From a virus, in IMG/VR virus record IMGVR_UViG_3300000350_000001, positions 1 to 27,175 of that record: a DNA stretch of 27,175 nucleotides; one strand, given 5' to 3'. The notes below the pieces were generated by a model. The model did no database searches and was not told the origin of the DNA. It saw only the letters and a list, made by a program, of their open reading frames with translations. The position numbers and the translations under genes are program-made. How positions within the stretch are numbered: the first letter of the stretch is position 1; each line of letters starts with the position of its first letter. Of this stretch, positions 2,444 to 17,684 are shown one piece after another.

Positions 2444-2725
2444 CTACTCCAATACTTGTAGTTCCATCTTGTCCCGGTAGAACACTGCTCGGTAGTTTTC
2501 TAACCGCAAGGTCATGGATATGAAGCCGTTCTCGATCACATCATTGCACAGTTGCTCCTCAGAGTCTTTTAGCACATCGTTTATTTTAGGCCCGAACACC
2601 TTATCCAGATCGTCAACCTCAACGTCCTCAAACTCTGAAAGTGCCCGGCCCAAAGCCTCACACGGTCGCGTCTCGTTCCAGTCGTGGTCGTAGGTTTTCG
2701 ACTTCACGACATTATATTCAGACAT
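2444..2725 (-). CDS. HalOD1-like output-domain protein
   Basis: 93-residue acidic protein whose pattern resembles the haloarchaeal HalOD1 domain: a TRPCEALGRALSEF helix, then a DLDKVFGPKINDVL segment, then a predicted beta-rich C-terminus (GFISMTLRLENYRAVFYRDK). HalOD1 domains usually stand alone or follow response-regulator receivers in haloarchaea, and their exact role is unclear. I prefer ATG 2725 to the TTG at 2731 because a TATA-like element (minus TTATTATAA, plus 2749-2757) lies about 32 nt upstream and would give a very short leader. The gene has no operon partner. Family call by eye, moderate confidence. Confidence 0.6.
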   Translation of the reverse strand: MSEYNVVKSKTYDHDWNETRPCEALGRALSEFEDVEVDDLDKVFGPKINDVLKDSEEQLCNDVIENGFISMTLRLENYRAVFYRDKMELQVLE

Positions 2726-2748
2726 AACCAAATGACATTACCTGATGC

Positions 2749-2757
2749 TTATAATAA
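2749..2757 (-). promoter_or_regulatory. TATA-like element of the HalOD1-like gene
   Basis: Minus-strand TTATTATAA lies about 32 nt upstream of ATG 2725, suiting a short-leader or leaderless archaeal transcript. Confidence 0.45.
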
Positions 2758-2842
2758 CCCTTTCGACTCGCCAAAATTTGAAAAATTTCTGAGACAGTTA
2801 CCTCCCAAAACGCAAACCTTAACGAATCCTCATGTCACAACC

Positions 2843-2877
2843 GGGGTACCCCGTAGGTGGGTCTTTGGGTACCCACC
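2843..2877. repeat. GGGGTACCCC palindrome plus 7-bp hairpin
   Basis: GGGGTACCCC (2843-2852) is self-complementary. It is followed by GGTGGGT (2856-2862) pairing with ACCCACC (2871-2877) across an 8-nt loop. It lies between the HalOD1-like gene's upstream region and the large structured region, and could be a terminator, an operator or the 5' end of the structured RNA. Confidence 0.45.
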
Positions 2878-3957
2878 AGATTCCATTTCAAGGCCCTTGA
2901 TAAGCCCATACTCGGCCTTTTGATTTTTACGACTGTGTTACTACGTTTTTAGGGGTAAAACGTCGTGTTGAGCTAACTGTGGCGACTGACAGGGTACGAC
3001 CCTTTTTTGCCGGTATTTATTCACTGACTTACGTATTTCAGTAGTTTGTACTAAAGTAGTAAAGTAGACTTGTGTTTGATGTAAGTTTGGTTGTGTTCGG
3101 GATCTCCGAGTTTACCGAGTTACGTAATAAAGTAGTGACGTGCTTAACACAAGTGCGCTTGTATATCCCTCACGCGGGTATAGCACCTAACCGACGTTCT
3201 CGGTTGTTTCCGACCCATAGGCCACACCCACACCAGAGGGTCACACAGGAGCCACACAAGGCCCATACAGCTACCATACAGGGGCCTACGTAGATCTAAC
3301 CCATACACCGCAGTTATCCCCTAATACGCCGGTTATATTTTCAAGGTTAAAGGTGTTGGAAAAAGCCGTAAAGTAACACCTACAACCCTCATACCCACCG
3401 TATAGCCATAGCTCACACACAGGTACCCCACACAAGGGCCATATACAGGGTTAGATATGGGTACCTTAGCCAGTTTACATAACAGTTTACTTTTGTTACT
3501 CAGGGCTTAGGAGGCTTGAGACAGCCAAGAACACCACTTTAGCACCCAAAAACTGAAATCGACAAGTATATATGTACCCCACTCATCTGGTAGAATGTTG
3601 AAGGCAGTCAGGCAGTGCGGTGCCTTCGAAGTAAGCCCCTGTCCGGATGGTTCCGAAGGTGAATTAACACCTTTGAGGGTTGTAACCTCAAATACCAAAC
3701 CCGCCGGGCGTTACTCCCTGATAGGCAGTTGTTGAGGTGGCCTAAGACCCATCGAACGGGTAAACCCGGAAAGCGGTTTTTCGGAACCCGGTGGCTCAGA
3801 AGGGAAAGAGGGAATACCTAACCCGTAATATTTGGGTCGTAGGACGGTCTTACGGCTCGAAATCCTGAAAGGGACTATTCGCTTAATGGTTCGATAGAAT
3901 ATAACGGTCGGAACCCGGCATTGCGGGGGTTAACGGTGTTAGGTGGGTAAAGCGAAT

Positions 3958-3977
3958 TCAAGCCCGAAAGGGCTTGA
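3958..3977 (+). other. GAAA-capped 8-bp hairpin inside the putative large RNA
   Basis: TCAAGCCC-GAAA-GGGCTTGA: a perfect 8-bp stem closed by a GNRA tetraloop. The minus strand would have a TTTC loop, so this favours a functional plus-strand RNA. Confidence 0.7.
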
Positions 3978-4307
3978 GGGACATCTCATACAGGCATACT
4001 TTCAGTCGGTTATGCAATGGTGTGTCAAAGTGCAAAGCGTGAAAGGATTCGGATCTTCTGAATCACAGTCTTACACAAGGTCCAAATACGGATATTTGGC
4101 CCTATGAGTAGGCCAACGGGGTACTGCTCGGATGACTTAAAACCGGTTTCTAATAACCGTGTTACTTCTTAACAAGCGGTAAGACAAAACTGTGAAGTGG
4201 AGCATTGAAGCCTGTGGTACTAATTTGCGGGGTATCAGGGTGAAAAATTTGGCTAACTCCCTGAAAAGGGCCAAAGCATTCGGAAAACCCCTTGTGTTCA
4301 GTAATGA

Positions 4308-4319
4308 GGGATACCCCGG
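4308..4319 (+). repeat. GGGATACCCCGG, copy 1
   Basis: Identical to 4612-4623. In this copy GATACCCC (4310-4317) can pair with GGGGTATC at 4229-4236 (8 bp). In the second copy the same letters form the mini-hairpin of the tRNA-like structure, so the two copies could compete for one partner. Confidence 0.5.
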
Positions 4320-4589
4320 CGAGTAGGTTTAAAGTAGTTAACAACTTCTTGAAAAGTGGTTCCAATGATTGCGTAAAATCCCCATAGGAACCCCAGTATT
4401 GAAGGCTTGAATGAAACAAACTGAAACCCGAACGGTGGGTATAGACATCGACGTTTACGGCCTAACTGGTAACAGCGAAAACACGGTTTCAACGAATACT
4501 GTGGACTTGAATAAGAGGTTTAGGATACCGACCCTAAGCCCATAACAACCCACAGGAAAACACAAGATCCGGGGGTAATAACTCGGATA

Positions 4590-4647
4590 GGATAGTCTTT
4601 AGTTGGTAAGCGGGATACCCCGGTAAGTTCGAACCTTACACTATTCT
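4590..4647 (+). ncRNA. tRNA-like structure TLS0 with reduced anticodon arm
   Basis: 7-bp acceptor GGATAGT (4590-4596) with ACTATTC (4640-4646; one G-U pair); 3-bp D-like stem CTT (4597-4599) with AAG (4608-4610) around TAGTTGGT, a D-loop-like sequence; mini-hairpin CGGG-ATAC-CCCG (4611-4622) where the anticodon arm would be; then a canonical T-arm, GTAAG-TTCGAAC-CTTAC (4623-4639). The T-loop fits TTCRANY. There is no 7-nt anticodon loop, so it cannot decode. No CCA is encoded, as is normal in haloarchaea. It ends the large structured region and lies 49 nt before ATG 4696. Probable substrate for tRNase Z and/or RNase P. Confidence 0.75.
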
Positions 4648-4677
4648 TTGCGGTGTGGTATAGGGCGGTAAATAAAC

Positions 4678-4695
4678 GACCAAGAACTAAGACCT
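4678..4695 (+). promoter_or_regulatory. Degenerate leader motif before the 336-aa gene
   Basis: GACCAAGAACTAAGACCT ends immediately before ATG 4696. It matches the first ten bases of the consensus GACCAAGAACATTCGACC and then diverges. Confidence 0.45.
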
Positions 4696-5706
4696 ATGCT
4701 AAGTTTTGACATAGACACAGACGACAGTACAAACACGGAAAACAATGCGGAAACCCGGAAAGAAGGTGTGGATTTCATAGAATACAACGGTGTTGAATAT
4801 GAAAATTTCATCGAATGCAGTGACGGCGAAAAGGTTCCAAAAATCGACGACCGAATGGAATCAGCGGAAAAATACCGGTTGGCTGTCGTCCTGAATTACA
4901 AATTAGGTCCGGAAATCGGAAATTCCGAATTCACATCGAAAGCCTACAAAAAGGGATCTGACGCATTTCCAAATGAGGCTATAGGCCAATTTGAAGGCAT
5001 GGAAAACCACGAGGACATTTCACTGGAAAAGGCATTCTCGAAAGGCCATTACTACTACAGAGAAATGGGTAATGGAAAAATCAAATCGGTGATGAAAGAC
5101 GCATTCCATGCTGAATGTGAAAAGCTCGGAGTTCCTAAGAATCTCGAAGTCTACAAGCGGAATTTCCCGGTTGCTCAAAACTGGATTACCGGCGATGATA
5201 TGGTAACAATTGAGGAAAACGACGAAAAACCGTGGGAAAACATTCAGATTCCACAGGAATGGGTGAATGAATACGGTGGATTGCCACAAGTTGTCATGGA
5301 TGAATCGGAATTGGAATCGGAACCCGAACCAGAAACCACGAATTCCGGTGCAAAACTGAATGTCCCTGACGAATTCGAAGACGAATACAAGAATACGACC
5401 AAAGACCGCGATAAAATGCGAATTCTGCTCAAATGCAACCCGGAATTCGCCAAGCTGGAAAAGAAAGACAAAGTGGAAATCTTCACCTCGGCACCATTCG
5501 AATTCGGTCAGTCGAATGTCTACGGTGTTCTGAAAGAATGGAATGAGGAAAAAGAGGAATCGGAATCCGAACCAGAACCCGAACCAGAACCGGAAACAAC
5601 CGAGAATGGCGATTCTGATACCGTCGAGATCGACGCTGGTGAATTGGCCGATCTCCGAATGAAGGCACAGAAATACGACGAGATTCAGGCGGCACTCAAC
5701 TTCTAA
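4696..5706 (+). CDS. Acidic protein of unknown function with EPEPE linkers
   Basis: 336 residues, first gene of the plus-strand array. Seen: a hydrophilic N-terminus, a central folded-looking region (about 60-200), an acidic linker with ESELESEPEPE (about 203-213), a compact segment (about 220-285), a second Glu-Pro-rich linker (about 287-303) and a C-terminal helical segment. Codons strongly favour GAA and AAT and many codons end in AATTC, like the following small genes. The ATG follows TLS0 by 49 nt and is preceded by a degenerate leader motif. I do not recognise a domain. Its position and size would suit an abundant nucleic-acid-binding or structural accessory protein, but that is a guess. 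Confidence 0.75.
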   Translation: MLSFDIDTDDSTNTENNAETRKEGVDFIEYNGVEYENFIECSDGEKVPKIDDRMESAEKYRLAVVLNYKLGPEIGNSEFTSKAYKKGSDAFPNEAIGQFEGMENHEDISLEKAFSKGHYYYREMGNGKIKSVMKDAFHAECEKLGVPKNLEVYKRNFPVAQNWITGDDMVTIEENDEKPWENIQIPQEWVNEYGGLPQVVMDESELESEPEPETTNSGAKLNVPDEFEDEYKNTTKDRDKMRILLKCNPEFAKLEKKDKVEIFTSAPFEFGQSNVYGVLKEWNEEKEESESEPEPEPEPETTENGDSDTVEIDAGELADLRMKAQKYDEIQAALNF

Positions 5707-5708
5707 AA

Positions 5709-5867
5709 ATGTACGGAAACAACGCTTACGGATTCAACAGCGAAACCGGCGAGGCGAAAAGCTCGGACATTCAAGCCGACCGAACAACCAGAGACGAACG
5801 AGATTCCGACGAGGAATGGAATCCTGACGAGGAAACATGGAAACAATTCATGGCGAGGACTCAATAG
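5709..5867 (+). CDS. Small acidic protein (52 aa)
   Basis: ATG two bases after the previous stop. Sequence MYGNNAYGFNSETGEAKSS..., then an Arg/Asp/Glu-rich middle and WNPDEETWKQFMART near the end. No cysteines or membrane segment. Tight spacing and shared codon use support co-expression with the 336-aa gene. Function unknown. Confidence 0.6.
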   Translation: MYGNNAYGFNSETGEAKSSDIQADRTTRDERDSDEEWNPDEETWKQFMARTQ

Positions 5868-5898: not shown

Positions 5899-5937
5899 GA
5901 CTGAATGGGCGGCTCGCGGTTCGATTCCGCGACAGTC
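5899..5937 (+). ncRNA. Minimal tRNA-like element TLS1
   Basis: Acceptor-like stem GACTG (5899-5903) with CAGTC (5933-5937); linker AATGGGCGGCT; T-stem CGCGG (5915-5919) with CCGCG (5927-5931); T-loop TTCGATT. D and anticodon arms are absent, but the linker keeps GG that could contact the T-loop as in a tRNA elbow. It lies between genes ending at 5867 and starting at 5998. A second hairpin, ATTCCAA/TTGGAAT, follows at about 5952-5972. Confidence 0.75.
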
Positions 5938-7383: not shown

Positions 7384-7424
7384 GGACTGATTGGTATAAT
7401 TGGAGTTCGATTCTCCAACAGTCC
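7384..7424 (+). ncRNA. Minimal tRNA-like element TLS2
   Basis: Acceptor-like stem GGACTG (7384-7389) with CAGTCC (7419-7424), with an A-A mismatch at the position of pair 7; linker TTGGTATAAT, which resembles a D-loop; T-stem TGGAG (7401-7405) with CTCCA (7413-7417); T-loop TTCGATT. It starts 18 nt after the preceding stop. It is followed by a perfect 8-bp hairpin TTCACAAC/GTTGTGAA (7426-7433 with 7441-7448). Confidence 0.8.
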
Positions 7425-9243: not shown

Positions 9244-9282
9244 CCCCGATTGGTATAACTCTGGTTCGATTCCAGATCGGGG
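9244..9282 (+). ncRNA. Minimal tRNA-like element TLS3
   Basis: Stem CCCCGA (9244-9249) with TCGGGG (9277-9282); linker TTGGTATAAC, identical to TLS2 in nine of ten bases; T-stem TCTGG (9260-9264) with CCAGA (9272-9276); T-loop TTCGATT. Here the two stems stack without any intervening base. It lies 48 nt before ATG 9331. Stem sequences differ from TLS2 while loop and linker are kept, as expected if the RNA fold is selected. Confidence 0.82.
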
Positions 9283-9306: not shown

Positions 9307-9324
9307 GACCAAGAACATTCGACC
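9307..9324 (+). promoter_or_regulatory. Conserved leader motif
   Basis: GACCAAGAACATTCGACC, a perfect consensus copy, 6 nt before ATG 9331. Confidence 0.6.
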
Positions 9325-10892: not shown

Positions 10893-10934
10893 CTCTGACT
10901 GGTAGTTAACTCGGAATTCAATTTTCCGACAGAG
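10893..10934 (+). ncRNA. Minimal tRNA-like element TLS4
   Basis: Stem CTCTG (10893-10897) with CAGAG (10930-10934); linker ACTGGTAGTTAAC; T-stem CGGAA (10912-10916) with TTCCG (10924-10928), extended by a T-A pair; T-loop TTCAATT, the A variant of the TTCRANY consensus. It lies 62 nt before ATG 10997, with small hairpins between. Confidence 0.75.
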
Positions 10935-17642: not shown

Positions 17643-17684
17643 GCACCCAATGGTGGTCAGGGAGGTTCGATTCCTTCCGGGTGC
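17643..17684 (+). ncRNA. Minimal tRNA-like element TLS5
   Basis: Stem GCACCC (17643-17648) with GGGTGC (17679-17684), with an A-C mismatch at pair 7; linker ATGGTGGTCAG; T-stem GGAGG (17661-17665) with CCTTC (17673-17677), one G-U; T-loop TTCGATT. Same architecture as TLS1-4. It lies 105 nt before ATG 17790 and downstream of a real tRNA on the same transcript. Confidence 0.8.

Follow-up and report, generated by a model that had tools for sequence, protein, structure and literature searches.

What does a tRNA-like fold without an anticodon loop do between a structured non-coding RNA and the first gene of a viral operon? The fold lies at positions 4590–4647 of a 27-kb IMG/VR virus record, the analysed stretch of which (27,175 nt) is here called the window, and its region was read base by base. 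The acceptor pairs GGATAGT (4590–4596) with ACTATTC (4640–4646) at 7/7 positions, one of them G-U, and encloses a 3-bp D-like arm (CTT-TAGTTGGT-AAG, 4597–4610, with the loop at 4600–4607), a 4-bp mini-hairpin (CGGG-ATAC-CCCG, 4611–4622), and a 5-bp T arm (GTAAG-TTCGAAC-CTTAC, 4623–4639). The 7-nt anticodon loop on a 5-bp stem, the inter-arm linker, and the variable loop are all absent. This direct reading confirms the preliminary description, which had listed an acceptor, a D-like arm, a mini-hairpin, and a T arm carrying TTCGAAC, but no anticodon loop.

A descriptor requiring a T arm with 5/5 pairs, a TTCRANY loop, a directly adjacent 7-bp acceptor, and a gap of 20–50 matches the window only at the 4590 element and at the true tRNA-Met. 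Among dinucleotide shuffles scanned on both strands it matched in 1 of 400 (0.0025 per shuffled window), which rules out a chance fold. The element receives no call from ARAGORN or from Rfam, including the Rfam tRNA model; a known Rfam RNA is ruled out by this lack of a match, and a functional tRNA by the absence of the anticodon loop. Thermodynamic folding alone does not single it out (z −0.93). By nearest-neighbour energy, the cloverleaf has −13.2 kcal/mol against a minimum free energy of −14.3 kcal/mol, placing it 1.1 kcal/mol above the minimum, with pairing probabilities of p > 0.9 for the acceptor and mini-arm and about 0.16 for the T arm. Since energy alone does not favour the T arm, tertiary contacts like those of tRNA would be needed for the T and D arms to form.

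The virus that carries this element is closest to Hafunaviridae, with a TerL 55% identical to that of HRTV-25 and 44% to those of HF1/HF2, and its replication proteins likewise find their nearest relatives there. Judged by these proteins, the window is from a Hafunaviridae-like haloarchaeal virus. Its terminase genes run leftward and its early genes rightward, with a long non-coding stretch between both sets. A TATA-like element in this stretch (Table 1) has a counterpart in HF2, TTTATATGTAACC, at the same relative place (about 520–533), and the usual TATA spacing of ~26 nt would put the start of the leader RNA near 3595. From there to 4589 the fold z-score is −4.24, with 0/20 shuffles equally stable, against −0.13 for the preceding 995 nt; the placement of the element at the end of the structured region, as described earlier, is thus borne out, with the stable leader directly 5′ of 4590. 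The element is flanked by the leader RNA on its 5′ side and by the first early gene (4696), 49 nt away, on its 3′ side. The pre-start motif CGACCAAGAACATTCGACCAA is repeated at 4677, 5979, 9307, about 10970, and 26326, directly before start codons, and in several cases this leader before ATG lies downstream of a t-element of the window. In HF2, the pre-start motif is GTGACACC in place of CGACCAAGAACATTCGACCAA.

No match to the leader RNA was found among Rfam covariance models, which include large phage RNAs such as GOLLD and ROOL, and nothing related to this RNA or to the 4590 element turned up in a nucleotide search against phages. When window positions 2701–5800 were compared by blastn with the collected related loci, only four overlapping 39-nt matches to one locus were obtained; in the closest TerL relatives (L150 and L151), the available sequence stops short of the leader RNA region. 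As a counterpart to the leader region, HF2 has about 1.4 kb of non-coding sequence upstream of its first gene at 1970. Positions 540–1960 of this genome (L004), together with HRTV-5, Serpecor1, and HRTV-21, hold a conserved, unannotated 1.4-kb structured non-coding leader RNA, and in an alifold comparison of four haloferacalesviruses, 39/406 pairs of the HF2-group leader region are doubly changed and 15 are broken in at least one sequence. The idea that the HF2-group leader also ends in a t-element was dropped, as none was seen at its 3′ end.

The 4590 element has companions in the window. A T-arm scan found five further elements besides it and the tRNA-Met, all on the + strand and none on the − strand (Table 1). 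These minimal elements consist of a 5–6-bp acceptor, an invariant A, a short GG loop, and a T arm, with no arm at the anticodon position; as in the 4590 element, the acceptor helix stacks directly on a T arm with a TTCRANY loop. A covariance model of 41 positions, R1, was built from 16 hafunaviral minimal elements only, and the GG of the D-loop-like segment is invariant in 16/16 of these seeds; the D-like loop of the 4590 element, TAGTTGGT, contains GG as well. The preliminary description had also called the 4590 element the most complete member of a tRNA-like series, and it is indeed the sole copy with D-like and anticodon-position arms. The series itself exists, but it is not limited to the large RNA with which it had been associated, for it spans the whole early operon and recurs across the virus family.

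Table 1. Predicted features of the early region of the window, with positions counted from its first letter.
Feature	Coordinates	Strand	Basis or remark
TATA-like promoter element TATATATGTA of leader RNA	3567–3576	+	Read from sequence
Structured non-coding leader RNA, ~1 kb	3595–4589	+	Fold z against shuffles
tRNA-like element (t-element) with reduced anticodon-position arm	4590–4647	+	4647 is the discriminator position
Leader motif CGACCAAGAAC and start codon	4677–4698	+	Also present at other genes that follow t-elements
First early gene, 336 aa	4696–5706	+	No family match
Minimal t-element GACTG-A-..GGGCGG..-CGCGG TTCGATT CCGCG-A-CAGTC	5899–5937	+	R1 E 2.7e-9, model seed
Minimal t-element GGACTG-A-TTGGTATAAT-TGGAG TTCGATT CTCCA-A-CAGTCC	7384–7424	+	R1 E 7.6e-12, model seed
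Minimal t-element CCCCGA..TCGGGG, then leader motif at 9307	9244–9282	+	R1 E 1.5e-9, model seed
Minimal t-element CTCTG..CAGAG	10893–10934	+	R1 E 2.7e-7, model seed
Minimal t-element GCACCC..GGGTGC, about 130 nt past tRNA-Met gene	17643–17684	+	R1 E 5.1e-10, model seed

Related loci were gathered through alignments of hafunaviral proteins. Among the hafuna-like records, R1 matches in 31 of 35, the window included, at E ≤ 0.01, and at E ≤ 0.001 it gives 70 matches in 29 records, 23 of which have several matches and none of which (0/23) mixes strands; these counts include related genomes and the records that supplied seeds, hence they are not independent. The descriptor for minimal elements found 20 distinct copies in hafuna-like loci, against 1.4 expected from shuffles. 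Minimal elements also occur in HF2 (2905–2945 and 4375–4414), HRTV-5, Serpecor1, HSTV-2, and HRTV-25, mostly between annotated genes. In general the t-elements are in sense orientation at gene borders, with a few (in HSTV-1, and some in naive ORF calls) inside ORFs. Among orthologues of the HF2 4375 element in eight viruses, the acceptor is maintained by compensatory change, a U-A pair being replaced by C-G in three and a C-G pair by U-A in one, with one wobble; the hairpin that follows this element covaries too, and orthologues of the second HF2 element were compared likewise. Covariation on the seed alignment (A4) is partly circular, the seeds having been chosen by base pairing, and the less selected alignment (A5) is small.

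The 4590 copy is unmatched by R1 at E ≤ 0.01 because its D-like and mini-arm sequence is absent from the 41-position model and the extra arms count as insertions. Nor was an orthologue found among the related viruses searched. The family evidence therefore reaches 4590 by architecture and position only, and this copy is called t-element-like by its layout, position, and companions, not as an R1 member.

A control for the model came from the hosts. When R1 was run on 246 Halobacteriota genomes, only 37 matches in 28 genomes were returned, the filters being stricter in such large searches. The multi-copy matches lie behind 23S rRNA and stop about 2 nt short of 5S rRNA: in each of five examples the element occupies 1501–1541, with the 5S starting at 1544 (L326, L306, L310, and L305) or 1543 (L311). 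One such copy reads CCGAG-A-CTGGTAGTTT-CGCGG-TTCGATT-CCGTG-A-CTCGG, which is the viral layout, including the A/A mismatch beside the T stem. By position, the element before 5S is the haloarchaeal t-element cut by tRNase Z. According to the portion of PMC3296008 that cites Hoelzle 2008, Haloferax volcanii tRNase Z cuts a tRNA-like structure before 5S and thereby makes the 5S 5′ end, and in vivo, RNase P and tRNase Z free a guide RNA that has the 5S t-element on both sides (PMC4326828). A model trained on viral elements alone has thus rediscovered a biochemically proven host processing signal. Beside the non-5S matches in cellular genomes, 1/10 neighbouring proteins had a virion-type PHROG match.

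R1 was also run on six other haloarchaeal tailed viruses, from outside Hafunaviridae. Strong matches, intergenic and in sense, were obtained in HHTV-2 (E 4e-11) and HFTV1 (E 2e-7), weak matches in HSTV-1 and HGTV-1, and none in HVTV-1 and phiCh1. The minimal t-element of HHTV-2 (KC292024) lies in sense between genes at 37666–37706, and that of HFTV1 (MG550112), at 35057–35097, fills most of the gap between gp62, which ends at 35056, and the PCNA gene, which starts at 35111. Published RNA-seq places the gp62-PCNA region in an early operon (PMC12542753).

Related tRNA-like layouts were noted in other viruses. Single minimal elements (acceptor, TGGTATAA loop, T arm) occur in IMG/VR contigs L021, L065, L072, L087, L109, L125, L079, L027, and others; these contigs are of low GC, some with bacterial-phage genes such as GroEL, and the elements have the same layout. 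Loci from the loose pattern TGGTATAA..GTTCGANTC were not counted as support, since chance matches and a group of full-length tRNA-Leu-like RNAs are among them. A widespread tRNA-Leu-like phage RNA with acceptor TAGTCAGG/CCTGACTA is present in L030 (about 1600–1735), L029, L018, L036, and L063, has an abnormal, long anticodon region, and is missed by ARAGORN. In the crAss-like phage cr130_1 (L064), a predicted permuted tmRNA at 3148–3538 overlaps a self-contained mini tRNA-like element, and the tmRNA call may be wrong there.

Our proposal, which we consider probable, is that the viral t-elements act as tRNA-style punctuation, with the 4590 element separating the leader RNA from the first mRNA. 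By mimicking the acceptor/T half of a tRNA, the 4590 fold would be recognised in the long early transcript by the host nucleases of tRNA maturation. The 3′ end of the ~1-kb leader RNA would be produced by an RNase P cut at about 4589/4590. A tRNase Z cut immediately past the acceptor, at about 4647–4649, would leave the first mRNA with a short 5′ leader ahead of 4696. Between later genes, the remaining five t-elements would be cut likewise. Cleavage itself, its exact positions, and a behaviour of the 4590 variant like that of the minimal copies are inferred.

The preliminary description had made the element both the 3′ end of the large RNA and a possible start of the first mRNA. Comparative evidence favours the part that makes it a boundary processing signal; the RNA end itself would depend on the enzyme, falling at about 4589 if RNase P cuts and at about 4647–4649 if tRNase Z acts alone. 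The protective role suggested for it fares less well, since with a 5′ cut possible at 4589 the element more likely removes itself than shields the leader RNA.

Published HF2 transcript data bear on this proposal. Transcripts of up to ~35 kb were detected by RT-PCR versus 0.5–9 kb on Northern blots, and the authors suggested processing (PMC8707807); the size gap fits cleavage at t-elements. A published primer-extension 5′ end, T-4384, which its authors called a start site, is in the loop of the element at 4375–4414 and at neither predicted cut, and does not fit simply with such cleavage. HF2 also carries an "aberrant tRNA-Pro" upstream of TerL (74631–74702; orthologues in L187, L191–L193, L215, and L216), in the sense of the late operon, whose 7–8-bp acceptor is kept via multiple paired changes, and which may be a late-operon t-element.

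Other explanations have been weighed against the same observations. Hafunaviruses carry true tRNAs and an attP from partial tRNA-Thr (PMC7230728, PMC8707807), and the 4590 copy resembles a tRNA minus most of its anticodon arm, both of which would suit decayed viral tRNA genes or attP fragments, that is, leftovers of tRNA genes or integration sites that play no part in RNA processing. Decay is nonetheless unlikely, given that compensatory changes preserve the acceptor pairing of the HF2-group orthologues, that many unrelated acceptor sequences have one reduced layout in common, that a single strand is used per genome, and that the layout equals that of the functional 5S t-element. The last point also tells against an uncut, stable tRNA-like cap, which would protect 3′ ends or block exonucleases and recruit tRNA-binding proteins or the CCA-adding enzyme: the host counterpart serves as a signal for cleavage, and minimal elements stand between closely spaced genes on polycistronic transcripts, where any end needs a cut. 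Although the location of the 4590 element at the end of a structured RNA agrees with a cap, and plant mitochondrial t-elements gain CCA and are not aminoacylated (PMC11658184), we regard this explanation as very unlikely.

Least probable of all, and hard to credit, is a cis-acting translational or transcriptional control element, such as an operator or attenuator, bound without cleavage by a tRNA-binding protein, for example hafunaviral RtcB. RtcB is encoded by HF2, and start codons and repeated leader motifs follow the elements; however, the distance to the next gene ranges between less than 10 nt and more than 100 nt, and conservation falls on the tRNA half recognised by RNase P and tRNase Z. 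Punctuation by cleavage is the reading retained here.

More broadly, we lean slightly towards the view that an archaeal DNA virus family and some unrelated haloarchaeal viruses base early expression on host tRNA-maturation enzymes, with purpose-built minimal t-elements punctuating polycistronic transcripts and one t-element excising a structured leader RNA of ~1 kb that forms a new class. If true, these viruses would have an equivalent of mitochondrial tRNA punctuation that uses no real tRNAs. t-elements are known in hosts, and their use as viral operon punctuation is apparently unreported: no report of t-elements in prokaryotic viruses was found in the open-access literature searched. How haloarchaeal viruses make short RNAs from very long primary transcripts has stood as an open remark in the HF2 literature (35-kb RT-PCR products versus 0.5–9-kb Northern bands), and for this step t-elements offer a concrete and testable mechanism in which no viral nuclease is required. 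HFTV1 combines a genetically tractable host, published RNA-seq, and an early-operon t-element, which makes the idea checkable on existing reads. Haloarchaeal genetics, which already uses the 5S t-element for guide RNA expression, would also gain ready-made processing signals in the viral t-elements.

Several known systems share features with the viral elements. The aminoacylatable tRNA-like structures of plant RNA viruses are likewise viral RNA mimicking tRNA, but they are 3′ genome ends that rely on aminoacylation, whereas here a DNA virus has an internal element with no anticodon loop. Plant mitochondrial t-elements form tRNA-like structures at the ends of mRNAs and are cleaved by RNase P and RNase Z (PMC11658184); they differ in being organellar homologues of tRNA genes with near-complete tRNA folds, and shared ancestry is not implied. 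MALAT1 mascRNA, which according to the passages of PMC11658184 that cite others has a divergent anticodon region, is carried on a long non-coding RNA, and recruits RNase P and RNase Z, resembles the 4590 element, where a long structured RNA is followed directly by a tRNA-like fold whose anticodon arm is reduced. This is a likeness of layout only, with no claim of homology; mascRNA belongs to a human nuclear RNA, while the 4590 element has an mRNA following in the same transcript. The 5S t-element of Haloferax volcanii (Hoelzle 2008, 2012; Maier 2015) has the same acceptor, A, GG loop, TTCGATT T arm, and A/A mismatch as the viral elements, and occurs in the class to which the hosts of these viruses belong. 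The host copy precedes 5S rRNA, whereas the viral copies, several per genome, punctuate protein-coding operons, and the 4590 copy differs further from the 5S t-element in its extra D-like and mini arms.
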